Source of the DNA: Solobacterium sp.
GTDB lineage: Bacteria > Bacillota_I > Bacilli_A > Erysipelotrichales > Erysipelotrichaceae
Assembly: GCA_017469355.1 (NCBI GenBank)
Contig: JAFUGM010000063.1
Coordinates: forward strand, 1 to 41,104
Length of the DNA stretch: 41,104 bases
Direction: 5' to 3'
In this document: one piece after another, positions 1-23,625 of the stretch
How the letters are laid out: every line of letters begins with the position of its first letter
Numbering within the stretch: position 1 is the stretch's first letter
The notes under the pieces: model-generated
Told to the model about the DNA's origin: nothing
The model's database searches: none
The model's input: only the letters and a program-made list of their open reading frames with translations
Translations under genes and position numbers: made by a program

Positions 1-695
1 GGGGCATCCTGATCAAGGAACGCATGAATTGCATTACGTTCCACAAACTGATTCTGAATCAACGCTTCTGTATGAGACTTTGGCGTGGATTGTAATCCAA
101 GGGAATAATAATCCTGCACAAAGTTCTCATACAGTGATGGGGTTGGCTCAGAATGCGTCAGTACAACCGTATAGCCAATGGAAGATACCGGTTCTTCCAG
201 TACCACTTCTGTAATCCCAGGTTCCGTTTCCATGGGTTCCTGCTGTTTCAAAACAGTTTTCAGCTCTTCCAGTTCCGCAACTGCTTCCTCATTTGCCATG
301 ACATGAATCGGAATCGCATTCGCACTGACTTCTCCGTTGACATAGGCGTAAAGGTAACCGTTTCCGGTTTCCTTTGCGCTGAGTGTTCCATTAACTATGG
401 TGATATTGGAGGAAGGAGTTCCATCCTCATTCCTCACAATATACTGAATTGACTCTTCTGCTGTTGGCTCCTCCAGCATCACACTCACAAGATTCCGTAC
501 ATCCACGGCGGCTCCTGCCGCAAGATATACCGGTTCTCCAGAGACGGATACCGAATGAGATTCGCCTCGAACATCAAAGGATGGCGCACAACCGCTGATG
601 ATTACCGCATCAGCCAGAAGAAACAGAACACCAGTCGTGAAAACTGCGCATGTGGTTTTTACAAGAGAATGTTTTAACTGATTCTTTTTCTGCAT
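1..695 (-). CDS. Putative surface lipoprotein downstream of the giant adhesin (partial, 3' end outside window)
   Basis: The frame is open from an ATG at 693-695 to the window edge with no stop, giving at least 231 residues. A strong AAAGGAGG ribosome site lies just upstream. The N-terminus has a basic region, a hydrophobic stretch and a lipobox-like ISGC ending at Cys36, so it is probably a lipoprotein on the outer face of the membrane. The mature part is acidic. It contains a segment (VDVRNLV) resembling the LRNIL/LRDVL segments of the duplicated N-terminal domain of the neighbouring adhesin, which may be a shared Ig-like fold; this is weak. It starts 44 bp after the adhesin stop with no terminator between, so it should be the last visible gene of the pilin-adhesin operon. 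I recognise no family. A role in holding the adhesin at the cell surface is inference only. Confidence 0.8.
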   Translation of the reverse strand, partial: MQKKNQLKHSLVKTTCAVFTTGVLFLLADAVIISGCAPSFDVRGESHSVSVSGEPVYLAAGAAVDVRNLVSVMLEEPTAEESIQYIVRNEDGTPSSNITIVNGTLSAKETGNGYLYAYVNGEVSANAIPIHVMANEEAVAELEELKTVLKQQEPMETEPGITEVVLEEPVSSIGYTVVLTHSEPTPSLYENFVQDYYSLGLQSTPKSHTEALIQNQFVERNAIHAFLDQDA

Positions 696-739
696 CACTA
701 CCTCCTTTCCTGTTGTCTGTTGTTTCATATGAAGTTGTA

Positions 740-3700
740 TTATTCTGTAGTATTTTTTGCGGTCTGAGTTACCTCACCATCTCTGGATACGGTGATCTCA
801 AACCAGTTCTCACCATCCGTAGACTTATATCCTGCAGGAGTGATTGTCTCATGGAGGTAATACGTCCCTGCTGGAAGATCACCGATCCAGAAGATACCAC
901 TGTCGGTAGAACGAAGTCCTCTTTCTACTACGGTATGATCTGCACGGAGAAGTTCAAACACTGCACCAGGCAGAGGATCATGTGCTGCCTCGAGCTTACG
1001 GAGAACGACTCTGCGCTCGGTATCAATCAGGTTCATAACACCATAGGTGCTAATATCCGGAACTGCGGTTGCCTGATTGTTTTCAATCAGGAATACCGCG
1101 GAGTCTTTCTGCTCTTCTCCACTTCCTCTTTGAGAAAGAATATGACTGGTGGTGATATTGGCAAGGATTCCACTGTCAATCGCCTGGAATCCAGCCTCTC
1201 CCACAAGTGCGACATACGTATTCTCAACACGATTCTTTAAATCATAGGAATTGACATAGCCTTTCGGAACGGTTGTCTCCTTAAGGTAGTAAACACCCGC
1301 AGGAATCTGTTCAAAGAGAACGGTTCCTTTTTTAAGAACTTCACCCTTCACATTAGTGAAGGTAGCCGTTCCATCCGCGGAGGTCGCCGTCGCATCTTCC
1401 CCGCGAATCTTATATGTATTTCTGCATTCTGGATCAGTAAACAGAGTAAATTCTGCCTGTGCCAACGGTTCGCCAAATCCATCGATCTTGAGGAAAGAGA
1501 TGTCATATCCTCCAGACCAGTAGATACATCTGGCTGTTCCAATATTATTGCCGGATTGACCAGTCAAATAGTCTCCACCACAATCCGTATCCACGTCGGC
1601 GCGTGCATTTCTGAACGCGTTGTAAGTCGCTTCGGAAACTTCTCCAGCAAAGGAAACCACCGCAAACTGCTTCTGCATATAGTAGTGGTTAGGCTGTGTA
1701 TTATCATCACCTTCAGCCCATACCCAGATCGAACCCGCCGGTACAGTATCAGCAAGATTTCCGTTCAGAGTAATGGATGTTAGTGCCTGTCCATCCGCTG
1801 CGATTCCCGCAAGGTAGATATCCTGATGAGCGACTGTATAGGCCTCACCACCATTTGTGGCATCTCCTGGCAACACAGTATCACTGAAGTTATCGTTGAA
1901 GCTCGGGTTACCAGAGAGGTAGAGTCTGCTGTCCTTAGCAAGGTAAATACCTGCACCGTTTCCACCCTTGACACTGAGATTATTACTGATCGTGCCGCCA
2001 GTGAAATAAACCGATGTTCCAGCACCAGCATTCACTGCTCCGCCATTACCCTCTACTATGGAATTGCGCAATGTCGCATGATCAGAGATTGTCAGCACTG
2101 CCGATGTCTGAGCATTATTGACGATACCGCCATCGCAAACGATGACACGATCATTTTCACGATCTTCTCTATGGCCATCACCATCAAGAGTAATATTCAT
2201 CAATGTCAGGTTAGAGTTGTTGGTAATCATACTGCCTGTGCAGCCATCACCTCTCGTGATGACACATACAGTATTATCATCGCCAGTATACGCATAACCG
2301 TCAGTATCAGTCTTAGGAGCAGTTGTAAGCATTACGGTCTTACCACGGGCCAGCTCTACACCCTCATTGAGTGTATATTCACTGACCAGCATCTCGATTA
2401 ATCGTGCTGTACCTCTGCTGCCATTGCTGTAGGTAAAGGTTGATGTACCTGCCTGATTATATGCAGCGAAGCACTCTTCCAACGAACCGTATACAGCAGG
2501 AGCACCATTGATATACAGCAGGGTTCCATTTCGATCCGTAATCTTACAGATAACTTCATCCCACTGCGCGTAAAGCGTCATATCACCCTTTGAAATCTCA
2601 TCTGCATACTTATTTGAAGGTTCAGTAGAATCGATGCCGCGATAGAAGGTGATGTTATCTTCACGTACATACTCGAAGTAGCCAAGTTCTTTCAGTTGTT
2701 CTTCTGTCAGTTCTTCGCCGTTTTCACCTTCAGGTTTTTTATCCATCGTAGCCCACGCTTTGAATACATGGCTATCCCAAGTGGGGTTCGTTTCCATAAT
2801 TGTGTAGTTATGGCTGGTTTCTACGGTTGTAAAGCCAATCGTATCTGTACGTTCCCCATTGTTATCTGACAGTTTTCCGCCCATGGCATTAAAGGTCAGT
2901 GTCGGTTTAATATCGTTCTTCAACCCGAATGTTTCACCAAGGAACGCCTTCTCAGGCAGATCGATATTAAGCGTACGGTCAACATCACCGTCTACCGGCA
3001 CCACTTCCCAAGACACAGAATTATCTCTGCCGATGGTCACTTTCCAGTGTCCTGCAGGAAGTACGGTATCTCCTGCCGTGGCAGTCTGATCGAGTCGATA
3101 GACGCTTCCCGGAGCAAACCTAGCGGCATTTCCACCTGTTGTTTCGACGCTGCCCCACGGAATAGTCACAATACCTTCCGCATTGCTACGTCCGCTCCAG
3201 ACCTGAACATCACCTTCGCCCTCAGCCTCTCTGGTTAAGGTAAAGCTGGCATTCGGTACAGGAACAACTTCATCAGAAACAACGATATTTCCTTCATCGT
3301 CAATCTGAGGCAGATATTGTGTCACTTTGAGTTCCAGTCCCTTACCAGTCCAGGCAATGTGCTGTTTTCCTTCAGTTACCGATCCACTGATACCAGTCAG
3401 TGTAGTGTCACGGTCATTAACGAATTTATTCAATCTCGCACCACTGATGTTGGCTCCGGTATAAGTACCGAAGTCTCTGCCGCCAACGCCATGATCCGCA
3501 TAGATCGGATAATCCATTCGGTTCGGAGTTCCTTCAGATTCTGGTTCACCATCAGCCACATAAATACCAATGTTGGCACTGGAGCCAAGACCAGAGCTTG
3601 TAATAATTGTGTTGCTGTCATAGCCAAGATAAACATTCTTGACAGTTGTTCCATCAGAATCTGTATTGCCAGTGACAATTGCATTACCAGAGAAAGCAAG

Positions 3701-6700
3701 TGTTGCATTCTCACCAGTGGATACCGCTCCCTCCGGAGACTTGTTTCTTTCTTTAATACTGCCTCCGGTCATGGTGAAGGTTTTCCATGCGGCCACATAA
3801 ACTGCGCCACCCGAGGTAGTTGCATTATTTCCAGTCACGCTTCCACCACTCATCGTAACAGAACCGCCATTATATACCGCGCCGCCATAATCAGCTTCAT
3901 TTTCAGTAATAACAGGCGCACCAGAAATCGTCACAACTGCTTCTTCCGCCGCATGAATTGCACCACCGGTCTTTTCTGCGCTGTTACTTTGGAGAGTACC
4001 TCCCGCAATTCGAGCATTCCCTGCTGTCCAAAGAGCACCACCTTCAGTTGCCTTATTTCCGCTTATGATACTTCCAGCGTACATGGTGAAGGTGGTTCCG
4101 TTGTTCATGTAAATACCACCACCATTGTTACCAGCAGTGTTTCCATTTCCTGATTCAGTTCCACCAACAGCACCTCTTAGAACCACGTTTGCCTTGGAGT
4201 ATACTGCACCACCATCATTCTCTGCCTGATTGCCCGTGAGAATTGTTCCGACATTCAGATTTACACTTGTTCCAGTAGAAGCGTAGATTGCACCGCCATT
4301 ACCATTATTATTTGCTTCACAGTCCGTGATTGTTCCAGCAGTCGTAATGGTGACAAAGCCGGAATCAGCGTAGACGCCTCCTCCATTAGCTGCAGAACAG
4401 TCCCGAATAATTCCGTTCATGATAAGAGATGCTCCGGTGTTCAGATAAATTGCACCACCATTGCCCGTAGTTTCAGAATTCTGTAAAATCGCACCGCTAT
4501 TGACTGTCAGACGAACCGGACCGGCAACCTGAATGATGCCACCATTTCCATCTGAAGTTATCGGAGTTTCTGCGTTCTTAGCACCATCCAGAACAATCTT
4601 ATCGATGGTAAGAGCTCCATTATCTACGATCATACCGCCTTCCGCAAAACCACGGCTGACAACAGAAACGTTACCATTTCCATCATCCACTCCCTTGTTA
4701 TATGGGAAGTTGTCTTCATCCGTTGTTAATGCTGTGGAAAGGATCACAGTCTTACCAGTGTTCAGTACAGCAGTATTCTCCATTGTATATTCAGGAACAA
4801 CCATCTCAATTCTCAACGTTCCTGAAACAGTACCATTTCGAGAAGTTCTGAGATTACCGGAATTGATCTGTGCAAATGCATCTTCCAGATGTGCAAAGAC
4901 TGCCTCTCTCAGATTGCCGTTAGATTCCCTGATATACAGCAGTTCACGACTGCGGTTAGTAATCTTGCAGACAATCTCCAGGAAAGTATTCTCAAAGACA
5001 ACCTCAGAAGAAGAAACTGCCAGTTCATTACCGTCTTCATCTACCACGTTCTCACCGATGATGCCTTCCTGCATCATTGCAGAAACAGGCTCGGATCCAT
5101 TCTTCGAAACCATCGTACGAACAGAAATTCTCTGGGTATCAGAAAGCTCTTCTTCCACTGCGTACTTCAAATCCGTAGGCAGTCCGTGAATTATAAGAGA
5201 CTCTCCATGTTTCAGAGTAAACTCTGCCACACCATCCGTGAACTCTATTTCTCCGTAAATCGAATTATTGTTTGCGTCCGACTTTTCTGCTTGATAAGTC
5301 TTTGAAATGGTATTGTCATCCAAAGACAATTTGAAACTGAAATCCTCTTGGTAATCCTGCTCCGCATTACTTACAACCTGTTTGGAAACAATAAGATCTC
5401 CAGTTACACGAATGTTGTTAAAGGATACAGAGGAGAGACTTGTAGAATTTACGGATCCAATGTTTTCACCCAATGCCCCAACTACGGTCAGAGGCTTTTC
5501 ATCTGTGAAGGTAAATGTCTCTCCATTCCTCATTGCCTCTGCTGTATAGTCTTCTTTCTGAGCCTCAGACAGAGCCTCGGTCACCTCATAGGCCACCTTG
5601 TCAAATGCATCCGGGAAAATCGCAGTCGCTGATTCACCAGCTTTAAGCCTTACAGTGGCTTGACCATCCTTGTTGAATGTCAAATCACCATACTTTGTGC
5701 TGTTCATCGTAAACTTGTCGGCAGGCAATCGCACTATAAACTCGAACTCTGCCGCAGTTTGATCATATGACCAGTCACTAGTAATGGTCTTTGTCACAGT
5801 GAGGAGTGGATGGTACTCCCAATAAATATTTGAATTACCCTTATCGGTACTCTGGAAACCTCGCAGTGTTGAATCACGATCATTAACAAAGCAGAAGAGG
5901 TTATCTTCATCTACCGCCCATGTACCAAAAGGCTTCCCACTCAGACCATGTTTGTAGTAGATAGAAGTTGTCTGGGTCTCTTTACCTTCAGTATAAATAC
6001 CAATCTCAGATCTGGCATCAAGTCCACTTGCCTTGATAAGATCATTGCTATCCTGATTAAACTGAACATTGTTTCGAGTCGTGTTCTTCAGTGTATTGCC
6101 AGTCACTGTACAGTAGCCTGAGAAAATCGCTTGCGCACTAGAATCAGTAGCAATCGCAATACCACCGCCCTGAGTTGTGGCATTATTTCCAGTAATCACA
6201 CCACCGTTCATTTCAATCTTACTGCTGTTTGTCAAATAGACGGCACCGCCATTGGCTGCCGAGCAGCCAGTAATCGTACCACCATTCATGGTGAAGGTGC
6301 CATCATTGAGCGCTACAGCACCACCGTTTCTTGAACCTGCAGCACTATTTTCAATCTTACTTCCAGCATTCATGATCAGTGTGCTTTCAGAACCATTAAG
6401 GTATACCGCACCACCATCTTTATTATTTGTTTTGCCATTTTGCAGCGTTGCTTCTTTATCCAAGACAACCTTATTGGAACCCTCAATACGCAGAATCGCT
6501 CCTTCCTGGTTCGCTGAATAACTAGAGCCATTAAGTGTAATATTCTGCAGATTCAGTTCCCAGTTTCCACTTCCGCTCAAAGAAGTCATAGCAATGGTGG
6601 TCGCAGTCCTCTTAATGGTGGCATTAAATCTAGCATCCCCAATGTAATAGAAGCCGCATTCATCTGGTGTAGTAGAAGCCGTGGTCAATGTAACCTTTCG

Positions 6701-15700: not shown

Positions 15701-18700
15701 CGAATAGGTATCCTCCTGGTTATCAGGTACATCCTCCAACGCATAGTAGTAATACACGTTGCCCTGGGCATCTGTCCGCTGCAGAGATGCTACCGTAGTG
15801 CTCCAGCCGTCTCTTGAAATCGTCAAGCCTGAGCGCACCTTCACAGCATCACTCAAAAACGCCACAAGCTCATCTCTCGTGTAGCTGGTTTTGCTGTTTT
15901 CTTTTGTCGTCCGATAAAGATCAACGGTTACATTGGGTTTATCTTCTGTATCAGTCAAGACCACACCGTTTTGATCACGCCATTCTTTTACGATCTTCAA
16001 ACTGATTGCGGCTTGATTATTAACAACATACCAACCCGTACCGCTTATGTTACTGCTGTAGGCAAATTCCGCGATAATATCTTCACCACTCGCATACACG
16101 TGCTCTTCCTTGATGGAATAAGTGACGTTCTTTCCATCTTCTTTCGCAGGGAGTCCAGTAAAGGTTGTCGTGTCATAATACTTTTCTTTGGTCAGTTGAA
16201 GTGTTATAGGCTGTCCATCATATTTTGTGGCCGGCACCTCAGCCGCACCATCTACTGACTTATACAATCCAATCACTACACTGCTGACGTCCTCTGGCCA
16301 CGCCTCATCATTGTTAACGCCCCATACAACCGTCACAGGGATGTCGACAGTCTCGGCACTGTTATTAAGCGTAACTGTGTTAAACGAGGTTGTTAAATCC
16401 GTAACGGAAGCACCACCAGGAACCCCATCTGGAGCCCCGCTACCGGTTTCAGAGAAGTAGAAGTATGTCTTCTGCGGATTGGTCGGAAGACTATAACCCC
16501 AAGGTGCTGTAGTTTCGACCGCATAGTAAAGAGTATCGGAGCTATACTCTCCATCTATATCTCCTTTTCGTATGGTAATGGATCCAGTTTCATCCGTAGT
16601 GTAGGACAGAACAGGAGTTTCATCATTATCTGCCGCATATACTGTGAACACCGCACCAGACAAAGTCTTACCTGTTTCTTCATCAATTTTGACGATCGTC
16701 AGTTTATGATCCACATACTCATTGGTAAACGCAAAATCATAGCTGAACGCAAGCTTATCATCCGGATCGACTAAGAACTCATTGGCGTCTTCTGTTACAG
16801 GTGTTCCTTCCCGCTGGTAAGAAACCACAACAGATGTATTTGCCTCAATCACTCCTTCTAATTCAGCAGGCAGTACATTCTCTTCAATCACACGATATGT
16901 CGCAAAGTCATCAAGTTCTGTTCCTCCCTCACGACCAGTGTTGAAGTTAATAGAACCATAGGAAAACTCTGCGTAGGTATGACTCTCAACATCTACCCAA
17001 CCGGTTGCGGTGCCGAGTGCTTCCTTCTGGAGTACAAAGCGAATCTCGTTCTTCTGCTCATCCGTCAAAGTATAGTTACCTGTAAAACGTTTTGTGATAT
17101 TGATACCCTTTGCCTCAGGATAGCAGCGCACCTTCAGTACATCTCCATTGAAGTAACTGTAGATGCCTCCGTAGGTGTAGCTCGGGTCATCCGTGATCAG
17201 GAAACTGTAGAATGTATTATCCCTCTGGTAATATACAAACTCACCATCAACATTCTGGTATGGTGCCTCTGTCATTTCGAGATAATAAACTGTGTTTTTA
17301 TGAATTGACAGGCCATCGATTTCATCACTCAGTGTGATGGTGACATAGCCATCACTTCCAGTCGTAAAGGTAATCGGCTTACCGGCATTTTCTCCTGCCG
17401 CATAATACAGCGGACGCATGTTGGAATCGAGCATGCGGAACGTAGCACCTTCAAGGCCCTGTTCCATATGTCCCTCAGCGTAAGCAAACAACTCAATACT
17501 GTATACACCGCCTGTACCAGAGATATCCGTACCAGTAGGAGTAATGGTTTTTGTTTCTGTGACAGTGACTTGATCTCCTTCGATGAAGTCACCTCCATCC
17601 ACACTGCCAACTACCGCGGTATTATCAAATGTCACCGTTTCGCCGACCTGTCCCGAAACTCTGGTGGTATAAGTGATAGTTACTTTCTCGCCACCTGGAA
17701 TGACATAAGTGCCGGTCTGACCACTGAAATCGTAGGTTACTTCGCTACTATTGGTTTTGACAGATCCATAGTTGATGGACTGATTATTACTGAACGTATC
17801 CTTCAAGATAAAGCTTTGTCCATCCTCTGTCAGAATGTATTCCTGAGGATTCACAACGATTTCATAGGTCGCAAGATTACCGTTGAAGGCGGTAAGGCTC
17901 TTTTGAACCATATTCTCAGGCCAGGTAATGGTCAATGTGCCATTAACATATGTAATGTCATAGCTTGCGGTGACATCTTCGCCTACAGCATTTGTTATAA
18001 CCGCATTGCTGGGAATGTTATCGACTGTACCCATCAGCTGCTGTCTTCCTGTCACAGTCACAGAGCTGATGCTGTCACCCTCGGCGAGACCTTCACTGGT
18101 ATAGGTATCCTTTGTCAGTTCGGTATAATCGAATGGCTTCTCCCCGCTGTCCGCAGTAATTGTTAGCGTCTTTTTTGCGATTGTTACTTCAACATACTGT
18201 GCATCACCATCTGTTCCCGGCTTATACCATACATAGTAGGTTCCGGCAGCGGATGCAGTAGGAACGGTTCCACTCCATTTCGAAGTCTCCCCCTCCGTGT
18301 CTTCGGGTACAGTTTCGGCGTCATCGCCGAGCGCATAAGATAATGTTCCGCCCTCAACATAACCAGCTGTCACAAGCGTCTGTTCCTGCCCGTTATAGAC
18401 AAGATCACTTATCGCAACCGGCGCAACGACATTAAGTTCCACTTCAGCATCTTCATCCAGATCATCAATCGGCATAATCGCCGCATTACTAAATGCCGGC
18501 TCTACCTCAAGTGTCTGTCCAACTTCCGGTGCTTCTTCATGAATCCGTGTATCACGTACTGTAATATTTGCAGTCTGACCATCCTTCATAAGAACTGCCA
18601 GGCTCTCTTGTGAGAATGCATTCACTGGAGTGATGACACAGACATCCTCTATCACTTCTACAGATAAGACATCCGGGTTAGAGGAAGTTACGCTTTCTAT

Positions 18701-19699
18701 CTGCGCCTGGAATACGTTTGCGTATTCCTCTTCTACGACTCCTGCAGTGGTGAGAATATTTCTTAAATCAAGCGCATCATCTGTACTGATTTCTACTTCG
18801 TAGTAGTTTCCTTCTACGTAATAAGGGAAGTCCTTGGTATAAACAAAGACATAGGTACCAGAATGTTCTGTTTCAAAGCGGATTCCCACCGCAACTTCTT
18901 CTCCGTCCTGTTCTGTGGTATCCACAACTCCATCAACTAGAGTGCCATCAGCCTGGAATAACAGATAGTCATTTCCCTTTACTGCTTCTGGCAGAACAAA
19001 GTTCACTACATATCCAGACTTCTCTTCATTCACATCAAACCGGAAGGTAAGATAGTCTCCGTATACCACATTCCCTGCTTTAACAGCGTTTACCGCTCCC
19101 TCATCATCAACGAGTTCTGCCTCAACACTGATATCTTCTTTGAACTGTGATCCATCACTTGCCCGCACCGAAAGAGAACCTGTATGATCTTCGATCAATA
19201 TCGGTGTTACTGGCTCATAGGTGGTATCTGTAACGGTAAGATATGTGACAATACCATCTCTCGAATCAATTTCTATTACTTCTGTTCCATCAAAGGTTTC
19301 ATTGGAAGTAATAACCCATTCATCATCTTCCAGAGTCACTTCAAGCGGACTGTTCTCTCCAACCAGAACATCTTCTATATCCGCAAGGAAAGCTTCCAGA
19401 TCTTCTTCTGCCACTGCACCAGACGCAGTTAAAACATCACGCAATGAACGTGTTTCCTGTTCGGTGATACTGAAGCGATACAGTTCTGTCTGCTTGTTAT
19501 CAGACGTATTTCTTGTTTTTACATTTGAAAGGACCGGAACAAGGTCAGATACCGCTTCCGGTGTTTCGGCGATAACAGTTTCATCCACTGTCTCCGCATT
19601 AATCTCCAGCAGACCTGTATCTGCCAGTATCCCACTGAATGCCATATTGAATGACAACAGGAAGGACATTCCTTTCTTTGTGAACTTACTAAACTTCAT
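740..19699 (-). CDS. Giant secreted multidomain beta-helix adhesin, about 6,319 residues
   Basis: A single uninterrupted frame of 18.96 kb. I start at ATG 19697-19699, because the AGGCGGTG ribosome site sits 6 bp before it; a GTG three codons upstream would overlap that site. A Sec signal peptide covers about residues 1-38. Rough order: a duplicated domain of about 90 residues (75-165 and 295-390); MBG/YDG-like domain (425-600); Cna-B/SpaA-like domains (700-1350), some with the ETxxPxGY motif of isopeptide-forming domains; five MBG repeats with K-x-YGD-x-DP motifs (1350-1815); then five beta-helix modules starting near 2061, 3051, 4252, 4910 and 5717, rich in GGAIY/GGGIY rungs as in chlamydial Pmp and pectin-lyase-like proteins. 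SpaA-like domains separate modules 3 and 4, and a SpaA-like domain plus an InlB B-type repeat separate 4 and 5. Two SpaA domains end the protein (6060-6319). There is no LPxTG motif, C-terminal membrane helix or charged tail. Most likely a cell-surface adhesin; the ligand is unknown. Confidence 0.93.
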   Translation of the reverse strand: MKFSKFTKKGMSFLLSFNMAFSGILADTGLLEINAETVDETVIAETPEAVSDLVPVLSNVKTRNTSDNKQTELYRFSITEQETRSLRDVLTASGAVAEEDLEAFLADIEDVLVGENSPLEVTLEDDEWVITSNETFDGTEVIEIDSRDGIVTYLTVTDTTYEPVTPILIEDHTGSLSVRASDGSQFKEDISVEAELVDDEGAVNAVKAGNVVYGDYLTFRFDVNEEKSGYVVNFVLPEAVKGNDYLLFQADGTLVDGVVDTTEQDGEEVAVGIRFETEHSGTYVFVYTKDFPYYVEGNYYEVEISTDDALDLRNILTTAGVVEEEYANVFQAQIESVTSSNPDVLSVEVIEDVCVITPVNAFSQESLAVLMKDGQTANITVRDTRIHEEAPEVGQTLEVEPAFSNAAIMPIDDLDEDAEVELNVVAPVAISDLVYNGQEQTLVTAGYVEGGTLSYALGDDAETVPEDTEGETSKWSGTVPTASAAGTYYVWYKPGTDGDAQYVEVTIAKKTLTITADSGEKPFDYTELTKDTYTSEGLAEGDSISSVTVTGRQQLMGTVDNIPSNAVITNAVGEDVTASYDITYVNGTLTITWPENMVQKSLTAFNGNLATYEIVVNPQEYILTEDGQSFILKDTFSNNQSINYGSVKTNSSEVTYDFSGQTGTYVIPGGEKVTITYTTRVSGQVGETVTFDNTAVVGSVDGGDFIEGDQVTVTETKTITPTGTDISGTGGVYSIELFAYAEGHMEQGLEGATFRMLDSNMRPLYYAAGENAGKPITFTTGSDGYVTITLSDEIDGLSIHKNTVYYLEMTEAPYQNVDGEFVYYQRDNTFYSFLITDDPSYTYGGIYSYFNGDVLKVRCYPEAKGINITKRFTGNYTLTDEQKNEIRFVLQKEALGTATGWVDVESHTYAEFSYGSINFNTGREGGTELDDFATYRVIEENVLPAELEGVIEANTSVVVSYQREGTPVTEDANEFLVDPDDKLAFSYDFAFTNEYVDHKLTIVKIDEETGKTLSGAVFTVYAADNDETPVLSYTTDETGSITIRKGDIDGEYSSDTLYYAVETTAPWGYSLPTNPQKTYFYFSETGSGAPDGVPGGASVTDLTTSFNTVTLNNSAETVDIPVTVVWGVNNDEAWPEDVSSVVIGLYKSVDGAAEVPATKYDGQPITLQLTKEKYYDTTTFTGLPAKEDGKNVTYSIKEEHVYASGEDIIAEFAYSSNISGTGWYVVNNQAAISLKIVKEWRDQNGVVLTDTEDKPNVTVDLYRTTKENSKTSYTRDELVAFLSDAVKVRSGLTISRDGWSTTVASLQRTDAQGNVYYYYALEDVPDNQEDTYSIAASTDSEPRTLTIINKQTPITVTIKVNDLEKTYGDPDTGYTFETDVKEDGASVSVTGPDDSGKYTAEVTAANGSISQIVFTVTRDSDENAGVYVITPSGATLQEGYRVVFVSGTLTINRATVTITAGATKAYGDADPDLATIDGLKNNESADVLSFTVSREEGEDVGSYPITLEGDSVQGNYAVTYDRSNAELVITPAPVIVKAVSTSKVYGEEDPLFTAEVTGLKFTDEDSTISYNLARTSGENIGPYEIEASGDALQGNYSVTYKNAEFTITPAALTVKLENTVKTYGDADPEWEVILDGLQGNDDGGVLNSVLNEETGARTYSYTIGNDEEALLEFEVNRELGENAGTYKLIPSGNTEQGNYVLIYDETGNLEILRAELIVTPDRVMKAIGLKEDPLLTATVTGWKGQDENAEATYEIELDEGENTAIVTWTYTLEDSTLLTFTLKRDEGEEEGEYPITASGESIQSNYIVDYEPGTFGILAILDVDVTQPLIDHADADANPEYTYIATLDINGTGLSDYNKNGFEKDGEVYTQTFTLPASDKSNMITLKVPGGAKLSVKQDTTNNDYVTTVRLDGTSYTNPDDSTLCTIDSVETYHEIAFTHNRISLPVAARAAVSQEEAGATPLAGREGSMGIPDGDSRVINADFADEMHSKIGYALPTNMYYVYDHASLYTKAGVAIEGATGVTEIRYDRDDDKWQYKTGDEFKDAPTDAQLILFYLPKYVCKIGEVKFYSLKEAVQYANANGKIATIEMLIEDYSIRSASDAVTIPMGCNITITTAQTEYEGTGTAVISRSMSYTSGHLFTNRGTLTFENIILDGKNVRASDATVLNESTTVKEVGENPEETINVEVKAYLTIAENATLRNAIGNSGGAIYVRSGEVTVNGALKDNAATSGGAVYVNAGAVKLHGNITGNSTTNNGGAIYVNSGLLEIDGIVSDNHANASGGAVYAYAGEIGISGTVSGNYAANGGAVYIVRSNVNLTGALEGNSAQNGGAVYQNGGTLTTSGSISKNAATENGGAVYLNNGTFTEEVNGTLSENSALANGGAVYQGNGTFINNGSIAGNTAANGGGIYRVNGTLKADGTFSGNAATGNGGGLYSVGGTVTVTGTFGGNDEGTGNSAVNGGAIYISGSTLNLNGANFTNNTSTANGGAIYALNTNAGIGGTYNSRGGEEGNKVSFTSNESLGNGGAFYMEGGSLSVMNADSTLVGNKATDGGAIYAASGTVTVNNGKLEGNEAKSSGGAIYAVSASVTVKDGGITANKAAQGNGGGIYSENGAVTISGGALGRNSANRGDSEDTSVGLGGAIYAESGTVSYTGGNINNENTAVNGAAIYVGSGIANISASITGNNATNGGAVGVGSITARLNFSGNAEVNNNMMNGKQSNVYLDVDSELVINANTLTSGKKIGVYVPGKVDDDLVVAHGDVTGYFGAYVSAGDLTKLSTVFKNDRFSDLEVRYEYNRMYWVHALKYDVRYLKSYDSQSFPPTGTYKDVVTNQTYLPRTRENDIYDLVMAMKLYETHNSQFTSKVGADYASTAVYAYTYSDKALTNFEDYLKTIKWDAVNRKWSYTQQDGTEAPLEKLIIFYSAPAYLTIVNNNTSELKLDISEISVLGHNVAEGIYGFVTAKNGATIQTLRAVSSDDMRLGSGESIKLMLPGAQGQNITIKGTFSGTGDISYTFNGGASQTITGIELEVSGKLNSSDTAAELIIGSALPICKIGDMPFPTLKAAMAYAVAEKAVTGNNTYKIEMLVDYLVPKDDVLNIPAGYDITFTTASKDDETLPYTGTGDKATLSRDTGNTGSSVTATDSTLTVENLAFDGRSLAGSGAGGAISTSNCLTVKITNCDVRGFRAKQGGAIYVDNQKAGSSLTVEDCVFDNCQTNGSNDKAGGGAIWTTARELYVINCSFDSCACLTGNAQAGSVFHNIRGGWSSDSKTVITDSTFKNSYSVGGSGGTIESDALDVTIERCSFDGSYTNKSSGNGGAINVYANDEASTAKYSILRVIDCTFDNCSAKNGSAVGGAIRTTSHDLILQGSVFRNSQSVTGGAVAMTNARKLEIYGCTFDNCLATGNGGAVSSNAATVIIGKDNPGKYLDDSAKDGNNYFTDCTANLGGGIYNPKDDASVFMQNVNFTGCVARTGGGGALYTQAKTLSITGTSNTFADCTGWGSGGAVYQNRNTAGSRVTLENSAFINCEALNGGNGGGIYSNAREFYVNYDAENNCAIKGSESSFVNCTAANAGGGLYHDYAGTAAIANSVFKDCTAKSATGGGMYSTAQTLSIIGEQSVFENCTAQTDGGGLYHNRSAEGSAFTFKDGSFQNCTAIVNAGGAIYTGAKIVTLENGSILDSTSKANGGGIYINPSTASFDGCTITGNSVTNSDSKGGGIYQGGGATVYQNSIITDCEAAYGGGIYQADGTSVYQNNIISDCEAVSGGGIYHSSGTAVYHSGIISDCDAVSGGGWYDSGTFYILGGFISGNATNGGGIYQSSGTINQYGGIVGGTATANGGAVYKTSTYNVGSGTYDDVEYADGASIGGLITLNDTVDNEQTTKTVTSSAVNGGGVYNASGILTLNAGGSIGSEETGEDGEILYTATASGDGGGVYVAGGAVKIYDGVITNCQAAGNGGGIYHTSTGGNNDIFFYGSDSTAKIQNCLATNGGGVYLNSNTLNMGEKDNTSFGTIENCRATVNGGGVYAASGTFNLRNTSVIKSCVADGNGGGVYHAGGTFAFYGGNIIQNSASENGGGVYHAGGTFSMTDSGAVIGGSEGNGNTANIGAGIFVADGQTATFNDNTAKTLEISYNHALSYGGGIAVGGPDSLLTFQGTVKVKNNTMGSQNTTCNVYLDQNRNTIIKNYSLNADSYIGVYASDEQDAGHGVPGMPFATYISNNFDNLNVYHNDRRQYLYGLKGNQNSEVIWPEFVCKITDGEGNLLYRDADGSPAVYSVLETVADGAFNVLNVAGTPALYTKDGIQYTGDEYQVQMLVQEYGLSSSRQIYLDSEAKRKVTLTTASTTPDECGFYYIGDARFNATIKRTATTIAMTSLSGSGNWELNLQNITLNGSSYSANQEGAILRIEGSNKVVLDKEATLQNGKTNNKDGGAVYLNGSESTLIMNAGSKIENSAAGSRNGGAVALNDGTFTMNGGTITGCSAANGGAVYLTNSSKIEMNGGVITGNNATTQGGGIAIATDSSAQAIFSGYCTVTGNTLKNTTRNNVQFNQDSNDLIKASGLDARSEIGIYTEGKETQTTSIYYKHGLSGKPFGTWAVDEDNLFCFVNDRDSTLRGFQSTDKGNSNIYWEYHPLLTVTKTITSDWSYDQTAAEFEFIVRLPADKFTMNSTKYGDLTFNKDGQATVRLKAGESATAIFPDAFDKVAYEVTEALSEAQKEDYTAEAMRNGETFTFTDEKPLTVVGALGENIGSVNSTSLSSVSFNNIRVTGDLIVSKQVVSNAEQDYQEDFSFKLSLDDNTISKTYQAEKSDANNNSIYGEIEFTDGVAEFTLKHGESLIIHGLPTDLKYAVEEELSDTQRISVRTMVSKNGSEPVSAMMQEGIIGENVVDEDGNELAVSSSEVVFENTFLEIVCKITNRSRELLYIRESNGNLREAVFAHLEDAFAQINSGNLRTSRNGTVSGTLRIEMVVPEYTMENTAVLNTGKTVILSTALTTDEDNFPYNKGVDDGNGNVSVVSRGFAEGGMIVDNGALTIDKIVLDGAKNAETPITSDGNGGIIQVAGPVRLTVNSGAILQNSETTGNGGAIYLNTGASLIMNGIIRDCSAANGGGVYADSGFVTITTAGTITDCEANNNGNGGAIYASTGTSVNLNVGTILTGNQAENDGGAVYSKANVVLRGAVGGTESGNGNTAGNNGGGIYMNNGTTFTMYAGSIISGNKATEGGALWTAGNARIAGGTLQSNSAEKTGGAIHAAEEAVVTISGAPVITENEADYGGAVYNGGSVTMSGGSVTGNNATTSGGAVYVAAWKTFTMTGGSIKERNKSPEGAVSTGENATLAFSGNAIVTGNTDSDGTTVKNVYLGYDSNTIITSSGLGSSANIGIYVADGEPESEGTPNRMDYPIYADHGVGGRDFGTYTGANISGARLNKFVNDRDTTLTGISGSVTEGKQHIAWTGKGLELKVTQYLPQIDDEGNIVVSDEVVPVPNASFTLTREAEGEGDVQVWSGRSNAEGIVTIPWGSVETTGGNAARFAPGSVYRLDQTATAGDTVLPAGHWKVTIGRDNSVSWEVVPVDGDVDRTLNIDLPEKAFLGETFGLKNDIKPTLTFNAMGGKLSDNNGERTDTIGFTTVETSHNYTIMETNPTWDSHVFKAWATMDKKPEGENGEELTEEQLKELGYFEYVREDNITFYRGIDSTEPSNKYADEISKGDMTLYAQWDEVICKITDRNGTLLYINGAPAVYGSLEECFAAYNQAGTSTFTYSNGSRGTARLIEMLVSEYTLNEGVELARGKTVMLTTAPKTDTDGYAYTGDDNTVCVITRGDGCTGSMITNNSNLTLMNITLDGDGHREDRENDRVIVCDGGIVNNAQTSAVLTISDHATLRNSIVEGNGGAVNAGAGTSVYFTGGTISNNLSVKGGNGAGIYLAKDSRLYLSGNPSFNDNFSDTVLPGDATNGGEAYTVAHQDIYLAGIAADGQALTSITLNGNLADTVPAGSIWVWAEGDDNTQPNHYYMQKQFAVVSFAGEVSEATYNAFRNARADVDTDCGGDYLTGQSGNNIGTARCIYWSGGYDISFLKIDGFGEPLAQAEFTLFTDPECRNTYKIRGEDATATSADGTATFTNVKGEVLKKGTVLFEQIPAGVYYLKETTVPKGYVNSYDLKNRVENTYVALVGEAGFQAIDSGILANITTSHILSQRGSGEEQKDSAVFLIENNQATAVPDISTYGVMNLIDTERRVVLRKLEAAHDPLPGAVFELLRADHTVVERGLRSTDSGIFWIGDLPAGTYYLHETITPAGYKSTDGENWFEITVSRDGEVTQTAKNTTE
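1508..2551 (-). repeat. Beta-helix module 5 of the giant adhesin
   Basis: Last and shortest of five homologous modules inside the giant gene, about 348 residues. It starts with ICKITDRNG, continues with IEML, LTTA and LDGDGH as in the other modules, has only a few GG rungs, and closes at CIYWSGG. Its tail is the most divergent: NVYLD is replaced by DIYLAG and the IGVYV segment by IWVWAEG. Two SpaA-type domains follow directly to the C-terminus. Confidence 0.75.
3339..4972 (-). repeat. Beta-helix module 4 of the giant adhesin
   Basis: About 545 residues inside the giant gene. The head is VCKITNRSRELLY, followed by IEMV, LSTA, VVSR and IVLDGAKN. About ten GGAIY/GGAVY rungs follow. The tail is KNVYLGYDS, IGIYVADG, HGVGGRDFGTY, FVNDRDTTLTG and HIAW. 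A SpaA-like domain and an InlB B-type repeat separate it from module 5. Confidence 0.8.
5810..6946 (-). repeat. Beta-helix module 3 of the giant adhesin
   Basis: About 380 residues inside the giant gene. The head is VCKITDGEGNLLY, followed by VQMLVQEYGL, LTTAST, ATIKR and ITLNGSSY. Four or five GGAVY rungs follow, then the tail NNVQFNQDS, IGIYTEG, HGLSGKPFGTW, FVNDRDSTLRG and IYWEY. Two SpaA-like domains follow before module 4 begins. Confidence 0.8.
6947..10549 (-). repeat. Beta-helix module 2 of the giant adhesin, the longest and cysteine-rich
   Basis: About 1,200 residues inside the giant gene. The head is ICKIGDMPFPTLKAAMAYA, then IEMLVDY, FTTASK, TLSRD and LAFDGRSL. Its first half consists of rungs carrying C-x-F-(D/N)-(N/S)-C motifs between GGAI/GGGIY turns; the second half is mostly cysteine-free GGGVY rungs. 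The tail is CNVYLDQNRN, IGVYASDE, HGVPGMPFATY, YHNDRRQYLYG and VIWPEF. It abuts module 3 directly, with no linker domain. Confidence 0.8.
8341..8565 (-). repeat. Three in-frame 75-bp tandem repeats within module 2
   Basis: Near-identical units begin at 8341, 8416 and 8491 (cacaatcgct, cgcaatcact, cacagtcagt on the plus strand), an exact 75-bp period. They encode three 25-residue rungs of the form GGGIY-x9-VY-x3-I(I/T)(S/T)DC(E/D)A. The similarity at DNA level is higher than between the other rungs of this protein, suggesting recent duplication. Slippage here would change the protein by whole rungs without a frameshift. Confidence 0.75.
11293..13519 (-). repeat. Beta-helix module 1 of the giant adhesin
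   Basis: About 742 residues inside the giant gene. The head is VCKIGEVKFYSLKEAVQYA, then IEMLIEDYSI, ITTAQTEYEGTG, VISRS and IILDGKNV. More than fifteen rungs of the form GGAIY-x-G-x(5-8)-G-x(2-4)-N-x-A follow, nearly free of cysteine. The tail is SNVYLDVDSE, IGVYVPGK, FGAYVSAGDL, FKNDR and MYWV. A linker of about 250 residues separates it from module 2. Confidence 0.8.
14250..15650 (-). repeat. Five tandem MBG-type domains in the giant adhesin
   Basis: Five units of roughly 75-105 residues, each opening with a strand followed by KTYGDPDTG, KAYGDADPD, KVYGEEDPL, KTYGDADPE or the degenerate KAIGLKEDPL. Each ends with a SGxxxQxNYxVxY-like strand (for example GDSVQGNYAVTY, GDALQGNYSVTY). This is the pattern of MBG/YDG domains, which act as stalks in bacterial surface adhesins. 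Confidence 0.75.
18536..19475 (-). repeat. Duplicated N-terminal domain of the giant adhesin
   Basis: Two units of about 90 residues occur after the signal peptide, at roughly 19205-19475 and 18536-18815. They share the pattern SLRDVLTASGAVAEEDLEAF versus DLRNILTTAGVVEEEYANVF, then a I-x(2,3)-V-x(5)-NP/SPL stretch, a VITxxxxF strand and a closing TVTDT/TVRDT. An intervening beta-rich domain links them. The family is not recognised. The downstream lipoprotein has a weakly similar VDVRNLV segment. Confidence 0.6.
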
Positions 19700-19763
19700 A
19701 TAGTTCACCGCCTTTCATCTAAAACAAGAAACAAACTGTAGACTTCGTATGTGAGTAATTTCG

Positions 19764-21821
19764 TTAATTCTTTTGGTTGTATGCCTCGATCACCGGTCCA
19801 GGATATGCCCAGTCTCCGACGTGGGTACTCTGGAACCAGAGCGTGCTGGTTCCACCAAGCTGGAATGTGGTCTTATATGGGAATTTCTCATTATCCCAGT
19901 ACGCATCGTAGTTATAAGAAGTGGTTGTGCCTGCCGGCGCAAAGTCCTGGTCCAGGCTCAGATCCGGATACCGATCCGCATCTTTCACATTCACTTCATC
20001 TATATCAAACTTCCATCCAGCGCCATAATTCTTCGTTCTGTCATATTCGATACCGTTTGCCAGTTCATCCACGGTTGGACCAGATACCGAAGTTGTCGCA
20101 TAACATTGGTTCAGTGTAACCCCTGCCGCGACTGTTCCGATCAGACCACCAGAAGACCCGGTGGACTGAACGTTTGGTCGTCCAGGTGTAGTGGAAGTAA
20201 CACCTTCTTCATTGCCTCGGAATACGCCTTGATCTGTATGGCCTCCCGCATAAGATGCGGTGATCGAACCAGTAGTTACACTTCCAACCAGGCCACCCGC
20301 ACTGGTTGTGCCCTGAACATATACCGCAGCCGCACTGCCGGTAATTGTCGCTCCGTTTGTACGGCCAATTAGTCCTCCGGCATTCCCACCGGTTGTGGTG
20401 ATACTGAGGGCCGCCTCATTAGCAGGAACTGATTCTGTGTTATATGCGATGACATTTGTCAGTGTTACAGTAGTTGCTGTTCCAACAAGTGCACCTGCAT
20501 CTCCTGAAGTTGTATGAAGATTGAAGTTACGAAGTTCAAGATTATCAACCGTGAGTGTTGTCGCCTCTCCAAACAGGCCTGCATCACTTCCAAGACTGTT
20601 ATTTTCAACCCCATCGATATAGAGCTTCCCTCCATGATAGGTAAGCGGGTATTCCAGCACAGGCGGAATATATTCAATCGCCTCTTTCGCAGGAGAATCA
20701 CCCGTAACCAGTTTGTCATGAAGGAATGTCACCTTTTCCTTGAAGTCTTCCCATTCAAGGTTATCGGACTGCGAAATCGTCAATTCTCCACCACTGTTGG
20801 AAAACCCAGATCCGTTTCCGAGGTTCTCAAGATGACGGAAATTCGCCACGGTAATCCCATCTTCAGATTCCCTCAGTCCGCCAAACAATGAATTGAATGA
20901 TTCTGACTCTGGAGAAGATGCTGTATTTGCGAAGTTTTCAGAATCCGAAATCTCTACACGCAGTTTCAGATCTTTGCCAAGAAGTTCACTGAGTGTCAGA
21001 TGGTTCTGTATACGGTTATCAGAAACTGTAATATCATCCAGCACAACGAAGATGCGGCCATCTTCCTTCTTGGAATTTGATGTTGTGGCTGTGATGGGTT
21101 TCGTCTCATCATCAGTGAAGAATACTTTCAGTGATGTCTTGTCGTCATAATTGAAATGACTGAAGAACTCATCACTTACAATCACTTCCACATAAAGAAT
21201 TTCTTCGTTATGAATAATGATTCTTGGTGCCGCAAGAACCGGCTTCTTATCAAGACCGTTGGTATTACCGTAATAACCAATAATGTGATTCCCGTCATAA
21301 CGTTTTCTGGCATCCTTGTTATCTTTAACAGCCTCAAGGTTGCTGTAGAGGGCGCTTCCAACGTCATAATTGTCAGAGTAGAACACTTCAAGAACCGTTG
21401 CGGTTACCGGGTCGAACCGAATGGTATAACTCTGATTGCGAATCGTATCATCGATTGCCCCAAACGGGAGTAACAGCGAATAATAATCCGTAGGATCTTC
21501 CTTATCTAATGTGGCAGAGCCATCAGAAACCTTAAGTGTAAGGATATCTGTGGCCGCAGTCTGTTCTGCTTTTCCACTTTCAAATGCGGTATGAGACTCT
21601 ACGTCAATTCTTCCGAGTGCCTGCGCTTCGGAAAGGTGATTCTGAGCCGTGATGAAAATATCCTTTGCGATGTTATCCATTTCAAGCAGTCTTAAATCCC
21701 GCTGATGGCGGATAACCGCAACTGCGGAAATCCCACCTAAAATGAGAATGATCGCAATCGCCATCAACATTTCTGCGAGCGTGAATCCGCTCCTGTCTTT
21801 TGTTTTTAAGGTCACTCTCAT
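19764..21821 (-). CDS. Modular type IV pilin-like protein with C-terminal GLUG-type adhesin domain (685 aa)
   Basis: The start at 21819-21821 has a GGAGGT ribosome site. The N-terminus is a class III prepilin leader: short basic MRVTLKTKDRSG, cleavage after Gly12, then FTLAEMLMAIAIILILGG with Glu at +5 and a hydrophobic helix. This predicts processing by a prepilin peptidase and packing into a type IV filament or pseudopilus. It is far longer than ordinary pilins. The middle is beta-rich and unassigned. Residues about 410-590 carry GLUG-like rungs (GALVGTAT, GGLIGRTNG, GGLVGSVTTG, GGLIGTVAAG), a beta-helix repeat common in surface proteins. Modular minor pilins with grafted adhesion domains are known from Gram-positive type IV pili. 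It lies 19 bp after the preceding pilin gene, and its stop is 64 bp before the adhesin ATG with no terminator between them. Confidence 0.88.
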   Translation of the reverse strand: MRVTLKTKDRSGFTLAEMLMAIAIILILGGISAVAVIRHQRDLRLLEMDNIAKDIFITAQNHLSEAQALGRIDVESHTAFESGKAEQTAATDILTLKVSDGSATLDKEDPTDYYSLLLPFGAIDDTIRNQSYTIRFDPVTATVLEVFYSDNYDVGSALYSNLEAVKDNKDARKRYDGNHIIGYYGNTNGLDKKPVLAAPRIIIHNEEILYVEVIVSDEFFSHFNYDDKTSLKVFFTDDETKPITATTSNSKKEDGRIFVVLDDITVSDNRIQNHLTLSELLGKDLKLRVEISDSENFANTASSPESESFNSLFGGLRESEDGITVANFRHLENLGNGSGFSNSGGELTISQSDNLEWEDFKEKVTFLHDKLVTGDSPAKEAIEYIPPVLEYPLTYHGGKLYIDGVENNSLGSDAGLFGEATTLTVDNLELRNFNLHTTSGDAGALVGTATTVTLTNVIAYNTESVPANEAALSITTTGGNAGGLIGRTNGATITGSAAAVYVQGTTSAGGLVGSVTTGSITASYAGGHTDQGVFRGNEEGVTSTTPGRPNVQSTGSSGGLIGTVAAGVTLNQCYATTSVSGPTVDELANGIEYDRTKNYGAGWKFDIDEVNVKDADRYPDLSLDQDFAPAGTTTSYNYDAYWDNEKFPYKTTFQLGGTSTLWFQSTHVGDWAYPGPVIEAYNQKN

Positions 21822-21840
21822 CGCGTCAACCTCCAGATCT

Positions 21841-22392
21841 TCAGTTCAGGGATCGAATTACTAATGATTTTGCAGCTCCATCTGTTCCCTGATAAGACGC
21901 CTTTACCGTGCTGTCGGTATTGGATACTACTTTCAGCCCCTCGATCGTAAATACTCCTGTTGCGTTGTTATAGGTGATTCCGGTATAGGTAGGAATCAGC
22001 TGTCCGGATGCGGCTTCGTTCGTCAGAATATGCCAGTTTTGAACCTGTGATTCTGAACTGATGCCAAGTGCAGTAGTTTCATCTGTTAAGGGCGTAAGTG
22101 TAATCCACTTGGTTCCATCTACAGATAACTCATATCGCCAGTCATCATTTCCGATAAATGTACAGGAAGTGCCACTGCACGATGCGTCCTGCGCATAACG
22201 CAGCTGATCCCGAAGCACAATCACCGTGTTGTTCAACAACATTTCTGCCCTTGCCTTCACTGTGATTTTCTCCAGCACATTGCGTATCGCAGGAATAATA
22301 CCGACGATCATCGTACCGACAAGTCCAATCAGCACAACGGTCGCAAGCAGTTCCGTCAATGTCATTCCTTTCCTGTTTCGAAGTCGTTTCAT
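21841..22392 (-). CDS. Type IV pilin-like protein (183 aa)
   Basis: The start at 22390-22392 is preceded by TTAAGGACGG. The leader MKRLRNRKG is followed by MTLTELLATVVLIGLVG, a prepilin peptidase site with Glu at +5 and a single N-terminal transmembrane helix. The soluble part (about 150 residues) contains a short Cys loop (CSGTSC near residue 69) and beta-rich sequence, as expected of a minor pilin or GspH/I/J-like pseudopilin. It begins 7 bp after the upstream pilin stop, so the genes are very probably cotranscribed. No assembly ATPase, platform protein or prepilin peptidase is present in the window. Confidence 0.87.
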   Translation of the reverse strand: MKRLRNRKGMTLTELLATVVLIGLVGTMIVGIIPAIRNVLEKITVKARAEMLLNNTVIVLRDQLRYAQDASCSGTSCTFIGNDDWRYELSVDGTKWITLTPLTDETTALGISSESQVQNWHILTNEAASGQLIPTYTGITYNNATGVFTIEGLKVVSNTDSTVKASYQGTDGAAKSLVIRSLN

Positions 22393-22399
22393 ACCGTCC

Positions 22400-22714
22400 T
22401 TAATCCTTTGCGTAGGAGAACAGCCGCTCTGTACTGTCTCCGTATATCGTTACTGTTCCTGCGGAATGCGTCAGATTCTGCCCACCAAGCTGAATCGATA
22501 CACCTGTGGCCATAGAGGATTCCTGCAGCTCCATGGCAGTTTCCTGTTCCGCATATTCCGCCACTTTATCAATTCCGATCTGAGCGATTTTCGTAGAAGA
22601 CATCGCCATGGTCGCAAATAACAGTGCGCCAAGTGCGCTGACCAGCGTCGCAACCAGAACTTCCGCAATGGAGTCGCCGGAATTTGTTCTCAATTTTTCA
22701 ATCAAGTGCTTCAT
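22400..22714 (-). CDS. Short type IV pilin-like protein (104 aa)
   Basis: The start at 22712-22714 overlaps the stop of the preceding gene in an ATGA arrangement, suggesting translational coupling; AAAGGTGA serves as ribosome site. The sequence MKHLIEKLRTNSG then DSIAEVLVATLVSALGALLF fits a prepilin leader with Glu at +5, though Asp replaces the usual Phe/Met at +1. Only about 60 residues follow the helix, with a strand-rich C-terminus. It is best read as a GspI-like minor pilin, from its small size and position within the pilin cluster. Confidence 0.82.
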   Translation of the reverse strand: MKHLIEKLRTNSGDSIAEVLVATLVSALGALLFATMAMSSTKIAQIGIDKVAEYAEQETAMELQESSMATGVSIQLGGQNLTHSAGTVTIYGDSTERLFSYAKD

Positions 22715-23406
22715 TTCGTCGTCACCTTTCTGATCCGGATGTTCTCGGCAACGTATTTAATCGTGATCGTCCGTGTTGTCTGGTAGGTATGATCACCAAT
22801 CGTTATCGTCTTTTCAGACGTATCGACTTTGGCATCCGCCTCAAGCTGAAGAATGTAAGTGCCATCCTGCTGGTAAACCTTTGCGAGAATCCCACCATAA
22901 CGGTTCATACTCAGTTTTACGATCACATCCAATTCACCATAGGTATCCCCACCTACTGTCAATTTCTTCTCAACTCCTGCAATCGCATTTCCAAGGTAGT
23001 AGAAGTCCACATTTGATTTCCATCGATTCTCTTTTTCAAGAGACAGATACCCATCAAAACACTGACTGAGCATATCCTTTAATAAAGAACTGTCATCTGC
23101 CGCTGCGCCAGTTTCAATCAGTACTCCATCTGTATAAGTGACCGTGCCATCCGCTCCTTCTGTGGCGACATCTGTAACAGTAAATTCCACATCTTCCAGG
23201 GAATCTCTGATGTATCTTGTGGCAGAAGAAACCGCATAGTATTCCTGATCATCTTTCTTCATCGTCGCAAGCTGGCCGCTTACTCCGGAAGCACTGGTAA
23301 GCACAATTGACCCCACCACCGCACACATGATGAAAAACAGCAGCGCAAGCATCAGCGTAGCTCCGTCATTGTTCTTAAGTTTTTTGACTAAAATCGCTGT
23401 TTTCAT
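22711..23406 (-). CDS. Atypical pilin-like protein lacking Glu5 (231 aa), first gene of the operon
   Basis: The frame extends further upstream, but that part crosses the pgi terminator. I take ATG 23404-23406, which yields the short leader MKTAILVKKLKNNDG followed by ATLMLALLFFIMCAVVGSIV. This resembles prepilins, except that Leu replaces Glu at +5, as in GspK and PilX-type tip pilins. The rest has a long amphipathic helix (residues about 40-65) and a beta-rich domain. The ribosome site is weak (CAAGAAACG). Its stop overlaps the next pilin start by four bases. An extended -10 promoter lies about 75 bp upstream, making this the probable first gene of the six-gene operon. The alternative is an unrelated single-pass protein. 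Confidence 0.78.
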   Translation of the reverse strand: MKTAILVKKLKNNDGATLMLALLFFIMCAVVGSIVLTSASGVSGQLATMKKDDQEYYAVSSATRYIRDSLEDVEFTVTDVATEGADGTVTYTDGVLIETGAAADDSSLLKDMLSQCFDGYLSLEKENRWKSNVDFYYLGNAIAGVEKKLTVGGDTYGELDVIVKLSMNRYGGILAKVYQQDGTYILQLEADAKVDTSEKTITIGDHTYQTTRTITIKYVAENIRIRKVTTK

Positions 23407-23488: not shown

Positions 23489-23588
23489 AAAATCTGAAAC
23501 GAATCACTAAATTTGCTATTTTGAACACTATTTTCAAATTGTACCCCGCTAAAAATAACTTCGTGTTCGTCATCTCGAAGATACATAG

Positions 23589-23625
23589 AAAAAGACCTCC
23601 GGGAGCTTGATTCCCAAGAGGTCTT
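23589..23625 (-). terminator. Rho-independent terminator after pgi
   Basis: On the minus strand AAGACCTC pairs with GAGGTCTT, with further pairing inside (TTGGGA with TCCCGG) and a run of five T at the 3' side. It lies just after the pgi stop and separates pgi from the pilin operon. Confidence 0.85.

Follow-up and report, generated by a model that had tools for sequence, protein, structure and literature searches.

The window analysed here is a 41,104-nt stretch of the genome of a Solobacterium sp., a Gram-positive bacterium of gut type (contig JAFUGM010000063.1, referred to as C74; genomes, contigs and loci are given below as G, C and L numbers), and its left part holds an operon of six minus-strand genes, g1 to g6, running from 23406 to 1, in which four pilin-like genes are followed by a giant secreted adhesin and a lipoprotein-like gene. 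The contig end falls inside g6, and since the left edge of the window is the end of C74 (assembly of 2.69 Mb in 92 contigs), the remainder of g6 and the 3' end of the operon lie beyond the sequence; no other contig of the assembly overlaps this end. Genes g1 and g2 overlap by 4 bp, and the following gaps measure 7 bp (g2-g3), 19 bp (g3-g4), 64 bp (g4-g5) and 44 bp (g5-g6). The operon is separated from pgi by the intrinsic terminator of pgi (minus strand, about 23588 to 23623), a GC-rich hairpin (GACCTC..GAGGTC) followed by a T-run. An initial annotation, made from the sequence, had described six genes with these overlaps and gaps and a strong terminator next to pgi, and the open reading frames, the spacings and the hairpin all agree with it. 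The g4-g5 gap (19700..19763, minus strand) contains the ribosome-binding site AAAGGCGG, and a check for a promoter just before the adhesin found neither a promoter-like site scoring at least 8/12 nor a terminator-like site in this gap; the six genes would be co-transcribed.

By sequence, g1 to g4 are a type IV pilus minor-pilin quartet, in which g1, like PilX and GspK, lacks the glutamate at position 5 (Glu5) that is kept in g2, g3 and g4. The first three genes, all on the minus strand, encode minor pilins like PilX/PilK/GspK (g1, 22711..23406, 231 aa, cleavage site NNDG↓ATLML), PilV/PilI/GspI (g2, 22400..22714, 104 aa, SG↓DSIAEVLV) and PilW/PilJ/GspJ (g3, 21841..22392, 183 aa, KG↓MTLTELL). 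Among the four, the prepilin cut-offs of Pfam and NCBIfam were passed by g3 (N_methyl at 21.6 bits, above the Pfam cut-off, and TIGR02532) and g4 only. No Pfam or NCBIfam match was found for g1 and no Pfam match for g2, whose site (G↓DSIAE) was identified by motif reading; g2 aligns with a paralogue on contig C81, and the same slot is occupied in L036, L062, L063, L079 and L080. The claim of four pilin-like genes is therefore borne out by protein families for g3 and g4, while g1 and g2 are placed by motif and synteny and not by a family match. Among g1 homologues from quartets (n=10), glycine at position -1 is invariant and Glu5 occurs in none, and g1 shares with nine homologues the motif G↓(A/V)(S/T)xxx without Glu5. 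The AlphaFold model of g1 shows a 58-residue N-terminal helix and a beta-sheet head (predicted local distance difference test, pLDDT, 72.8). Such a combination, three pilins with Glu5 and one without, is characteristic of the HIJK minor-pilin set, which primes and caps type IV filaments (PMC10191384, PMC7541494), and g1 is a candidate tip-capping subunit.

The fourth gene, g4 (19764..21821, minus strand, 685 aa), encodes a modular minor pilin with the cleavage site SG↓FTLAEML (N_methyl, 25.8 bits). Its AlphaFold model (mean pLDDT 61.5, solenoid mostly 75-95) comprises the pilin helix (residues 15-68), an immunoglobulin (Ig)-like domain (about 196-312) and a GLUG-like beta-solenoid (about 390-600). 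In structure comparison, the solenoid region matched 3n6z first (Z 25.0, 270 residues, 3.4 A), then IgA1-protease beta-helices (Z 18-21) and, with lower scores, the binding regions of serine-rich repeat protein (SRRP) adhesins from L. reuteri (Z about 11). Pfam gave no explicit GLUG match for g4, and the label GLUG-like is used because of the sequence pattern and the structure. g4 also aligns end to end with the g4 proteins of L072, L079 and L080. A protease role, raised by the match to IgA1 proteases, was rejected, as HExxH is absent from g4, g5 and the C81 g4 and the matched part is the solenoid; a phage origin was also rejected, as the g4 N-terminus has no match in phage records.

The adhesin gene, g5 (740..19699, minus strand), encodes a giant Sec-type secreted protein of 6,319 residues. 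The ATG at 19699, the start given in the initial annotation, is preferred over an in-frame GTG at 19708, which would give 6,322 residues, because of the ribosome-binding site AAAGGCGG noted above. The signal peptide, MKFSKFTKKGMSFLLSFNMAFSGILA, was recognised by inspection and fell just below the threshold of the script used. Pfam matches comprise five MBG_2 domains, SpaA, Cna_B, DUF7601 and a C-terminal SpaA pair, together with long blocks of GG(A/G)IY beta-helix motifs. The description of g5 as a giant beta-helix adhesin holds for about residues 2,200-5,300, where the GGAIY-type motifs cluster, and not for the N-terminal third, which consists of MBG_2, SpaA and Cna_B domains. There is no C-terminal LPXTG-type anchor, as the protein ends in ...FEITVSRDGEVTQTAKNTTE and LP.T[GA] occurs just once, well inside the protein (residue 3116); sortase anchoring was rejected on the absence of this motif, although two sortase matches were found in the genome. 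Membership in the PilY1 family was rejected as well, since no beta-propeller (Neisseria_PilC / IPR008707) was found among the Pfam matches and the C-terminus consists of two SpaA domains; g5 would therefore resemble PilY1 in its working and not as a member of the family.

The last gene, g6 (1..695, minus strand, ATG at 695, ribosome-binding site AAAGGAGG), is secreted or lipoprotein-like and is cut by the contig end. Its lipobox-like ISGC motif (VIISG↓C) was assigned by motif reading, and the preceding signal is long with an aspartate in its hydrophobic part; the truncated sequence had no Pfam or NCBIfam match. No g6 homologue was seen beside the related loci in G1247 and G1449 described below, and G482 and G840 carry a different secreted g6. 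The proposal of a lipoprotein as membrane partner thus finds no backing, and such a protein was dropped as a conserved partner.

The machinery of a type IV pilus is encoded elsewhere in the same genome. A check for pilB, pilC and pilD homologues found all of them on contig C36, which carries PilB (E 1.9e-126), PilT, PilC and major pilins, then the prepilin peptidase PilD, PilM, PilN and PilO. The stretch of C36 from 18000 to 50000 holds no quartet, and no g1-g3 set lies beside its pilMNO. A search of the whole genome for the N-methylation motif found such pilins only on C74, C81, C36 and C30, the last of which has a ComG-like locus with its own pilin-like genes. Contig C81 (L011:1-10435) carries a second quartet in the same gene order, whose g4 has at least 2,910 residues and runs off the contig. 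Given this distribution and the lack of a quartet in the C36 stretch, the quartets of C74 and C81 are likely the tip sets of the cell's pilus. Another feature of C36 (L009:9000-18000) is a row of major-pilin-like genes, several in number and in part apparently degenerate, that is interrupted by a serine recombinase gene and could be a pilin variation locus.

Related loci were collected by genome searches, in which some of the genomes were incomplete. The quartet was found beside pilMNO in other Erysipelotrichaceae and in Clostridia. In G060, a genome of the same family (L021), the order is g4-g1-g2-g3-pilM-pilN-pilO, and in an Oscillospiraceae metagenome-assembled genome (L036) it is pilD-pilM-pilN-pilO-g1-g2-g3-g4; the quartet also adjoins pilMNO in G482 and G840 and heads the pil locus in G616. 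This position beside pilMNO ties the quartet to the type IV pilus. Matches at L034 and L035 and in G546 were left out of the set, being regarded as ordinary pilins that serve other systems. A different arrangement was seen in G1049 (L076, around 11000-15000), where a 992-residue g4 directly follows pilO, an overlapping frame encodes a 685-residue Sec-type protein and no g1-g3 are nearby.

The linkage of the quartet to a giant adhesin is also conserved, as the gene order recurs with homologous adhesins in distantly related genomes. In two clostridial genomes, a g5 homologue colinear with the g5 of the window directly follows the quartet, with a g4 of 731 aa, a gap of 63 bp and a g5 of 4,945 aa in G1247 and a g4 of 737 aa, a gap of 79 bp and a g5 of 3,079 aa in G1449. 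The g5 of the window is 34% identical to that of G1247 over 1,824 aligned columns (38% over a stretch of 685 in the C-terminal part) and 36% identical to that of G1449 over the last 257 residues. The part common to all three proteins is the C-terminal module, which is a candidate docking domain. In G918, a contig-cut g5 homologue lies 61 bp upstream of quartet g1, and a second quartet has a secreted neighbour with an LPHTG wall anchor; the two quartets stand in tandem on C41 (L072, L111), flanked by the giant adhesin and, at the opposite end, by the LPHTG protein, after which small secreted proteins follow in a row. G482 and G840 have a secreted beta-helix protein that is an analogue of g5 with weak similarity to it, and behind it another secreted protein. 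This protein is conserved between the two genomes (563 and 673 aa; L062:14655-16346 and L063:2529-4550), has a very acidic, repetitive C-terminus and belongs to no Pfam family. By analogy, the related loci suggest that the pilus may display the adhesin at its tip, as it does PilY1 in Gram-negative bacteria.

Members of a g4 pilin-domain profile were found in 48/397 genomes of one clostridial family and in 34/394 of another order, in open frames of about 150 to 7,664 codons. The longest of these, a prepilin-type frame beside pil genes in G1020 (G1020:C19:332792-333538, L106), is reported at 7,664 codons and would rank among the largest type IV pilins. In G1058 (L070 on C34, L094 on C31), a short orphan g4, preceded by what may be an integrase-like gene, has almost the same N-terminus as a long g4 at another site of that genome; this pair could possibly reflect tip-pilin cassette switching.

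Classification of the neighbours of every complete g4 retrieved (34 complete quartet-type loci; short g4 below 900 residues, long g4 at least 1,340) showed that a large secreted or adhesin-like neighbour accompanies a short g4 in 7 of 9 quartet loci (the window, G482, G840, both G918 loci, G1247 and G1449, the G918 cases including the LPHTG-anchored protein) and a long g4 in none of 25. In the C81 g4 of the window's genome, the short-g4 core is present in full, up to its final HYGDW.SPE, and is continued by more than 2,000 residues with Flg_new and Big_2 modules. This pattern suggests that the adhesin may either be part of the tip pilin by fusion or exist as a separate, split-off protein, and if the adhesive part can reside in either, both would act at the same place.

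Taken together, the operon probably encodes an alternative type IV pilus tip, with g1 to g4 as the tip complex and g5 as a docked adhesin that is not itself a pilin. The functional link between pilins and adhesin, which the initial annotation had offered as an inference, is supported by the recurrent order with homologous adhesins, the quartet in the pil operons of relatives, the full machine in the same genome and the absence of a detected internal promoter. The three refuting conditions that the annotation had named, a promoter or transcript start just before the adhesin, an unconserved gene order and a genome lacking prepilin peptidase, were each checked in silico, and each check favoured the link. 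In the mechanism that we propose, PilD would cleave g1 to g4, and PilB, PilC, PilM, PilN and PilO would assemble them first, as a complex of the PilHIJK/GspHIJK type that primes the filament and forms its tip; g1, which lacks Glu5, would be the cap, and the solenoid module of g4 would protrude from the tip. The adhesin would exit through Sec as a non-pilin partner and dock on the tip complex, perhaps by way of the conserved SpaA pair at its C-terminus and the solenoid of g4, and this docking would hold it at the tip in place of a sortase anchor. There g5 would act as a very long adhesin for a putative ligand, moved outward by extension of the pilus and drawn back when PilT retracts it. In most relatives the adhesive mass would be fused to g4 as one giant pilin, and here it would be split off.

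Several observations weigh against this interpretation. With its LPHTG anchor, the G918 neighbour would have no need of the pilus, and the quartet loci of G897 and G888 combine a short g4 with no large secreted neighbour. The contrast between 7/9 and 0/25 (Fisher p 7e-6, or 2.5e-5 with one G918 case dropped) takes the loci as independent and ignores their kinship, and the simple script used to call signal peptides did not pick up the weak one of the window g5, which was added by inspection. The module is also patchy, with a g4 match in 2/96 genomes of the family (one being the window's own) and in 1/63 genomes of the family of G1247. A fold search with g1 (Foldseek, VIA-align) gave no convincing pilin match, the best (Z 4.8) being to unrelated proteins, and its sequence matches in the Protein Data Bank were at chance level; as no fold match to GspK or PilX was obtained, the assignment of g1 is based on motif, order and synteny. 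Finally, without the PilY1 beta-propeller, g5 has no homology to known tip effectors.

In a rival reading, g5 is a surface protein in its own right and has no more than the operon in common with the pilins, for example for joint regulation of attachment factors. The SpaA, MBG_2 and Cna_B domains of g5 are typical of sortase-anchored adhesins, and one G918 neighbour is itself an LPHTG protein. We nevertheless consider this unlikely, since the homologous quartet-linked adhesins have no anchors, retain C-terminal modules that are related to each other and are found only with a short g4. The absence of an anchor of any recognised kind would also be expected if the pilus pushed the 6,300-residue protein through the thick wall and released it, as a type II secretion system (T2SS) pseudopilus does or as the toxin-coregulated pilus (TCP) does with TcpF (PMC9565799), the precedent that makes release a rival. 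Minor pilins are known to recognise secreted substrates in the T2SS and in type IVb pili (PMC10191384, PMC9565799). Monoderms, however, have no outer membrane to make such export necessary, and most relatives carry the equivalent mass covalently in the tip pilin, which fits retention better than release. Large Sec proteins also get to the Gram-positive surface without pili, and pilus-assisted secretion is thus quite improbable here. An assignment of the quartet to another filament, a pseudopilus or one of the competence type, in place of the cell's type IV pilus seems highly improbable: in this genome the quartets do lie far from the core pil genes and C30 has a ComG-like locus, but that locus has pilin-like genes of its own and in several relatives the quartet lies directly beside pilMNO.

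The preferred reading, an alternative pilus tip with a docked adhesin, can be extended tentatively, and with clear reservation, to a form of pilus-tip display that has gone unrecognised in monoderm gut Firmicutes. A conserved four-pilin tip would carry an adhesive part that is either fused or split off as an anchor-free, non-covalently held giant exported by Sec, and a genome could hold several interchangeable tip operons with differing specificities. Such a system would account for the retention of giant adhesins without anchors on the cells of gut Firmicutes, would give a concrete role to many uncharacterised giant 'prepilin' genes of gut bacteria and would provide a natural fused/split pair for asking how a pilus tip holds an adhesin. 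One review assigns non-pilin tip effectors (PilC/PilY1, TcpF) to diderm pili and modular pilins to monoderms, and describes no non-pilin tip effector for monoderm pili (PMC10191384); if our reading is true, this monoderm operon uses both solutions, and one of the PilY1 type evolved in cells with no outer membrane as well.

Among known systems, the closest counterparts are the fimU-pilV-pilW-pilX-pilY1 clusters of Pseudomonas and Myxococcus, in which four minor pilins are encoded with a tip adhesin that is large, secreted through Sec and not itself a pilin (PMC7541494, PMC10191384). The view in the initial annotation that such surface systems normally have no relation is therefore not supported, and its claim that this composition is without a described precedent is wrong. 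M. xanthus has three PilY1/minor-pilin clusters for one machine and one major pilin, and their tips are thought to differ in specificity (PMC7541494). The operon shares with these clusters (in P. aeruginosa and clusters 1-3 of M. xanthus) the four minor pilins, one without Glu5, and the large Sec-secreted adhesin, and the two tip sets on C74 and C81 for one machine parallel the arrangement in M. xanthus. It differs in that the hosts of those clusters are diderms and PilY1 ends in a conserved beta-propeller, which is missing from g5; g5 is also several times longer and made of Gram-positive adhesin domains, and g4 is itself a large modular pilin. The operon is thus best read as a monoderm analogue of fimU-pilVWX-pilY1 and not as a PilY1 homologue. 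PilB and PilC of S. sanguinis are minor pilins, presumably located at the tip, onto which an adhesive module is grafted (PMC8179133, PMC9934059), and a 2021 survey of modular pilins listed over 1,200 proteins in 264 architectures, including pilin-IPR011493 (PMC8179133). These pilins resemble g4 in joining an N-terminal pilin module to a grafted non-pilin module; they differ in using PilABC in place of a four-subunit HIJK-type set, and the fused versions found here reach thousands of residues. IPR011493 is presumably the GLUG entry. A secreted non-pilin protein is also bound by the tip minor pilin in the pairs TcpB-TcpF and CofB-CofJ (PMC9565799, PMC8179133), which share this partnership with the operon; they differ in that a single, trimeric minor pilin takes the place of the quartet, the effectors are small and soluble, and the hosts are diderms. 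The sortase-anchored MBG/SpaA/Cna_B adhesins of Firmicutes match g5 in domain content and differ by their C-terminal LPXTG-type anchor. As far as the literature was searched, what is new is a monoderm locus of this type, with its giant anchor-free partner, its clostridial homologues and its alternation with giant fused pilins.

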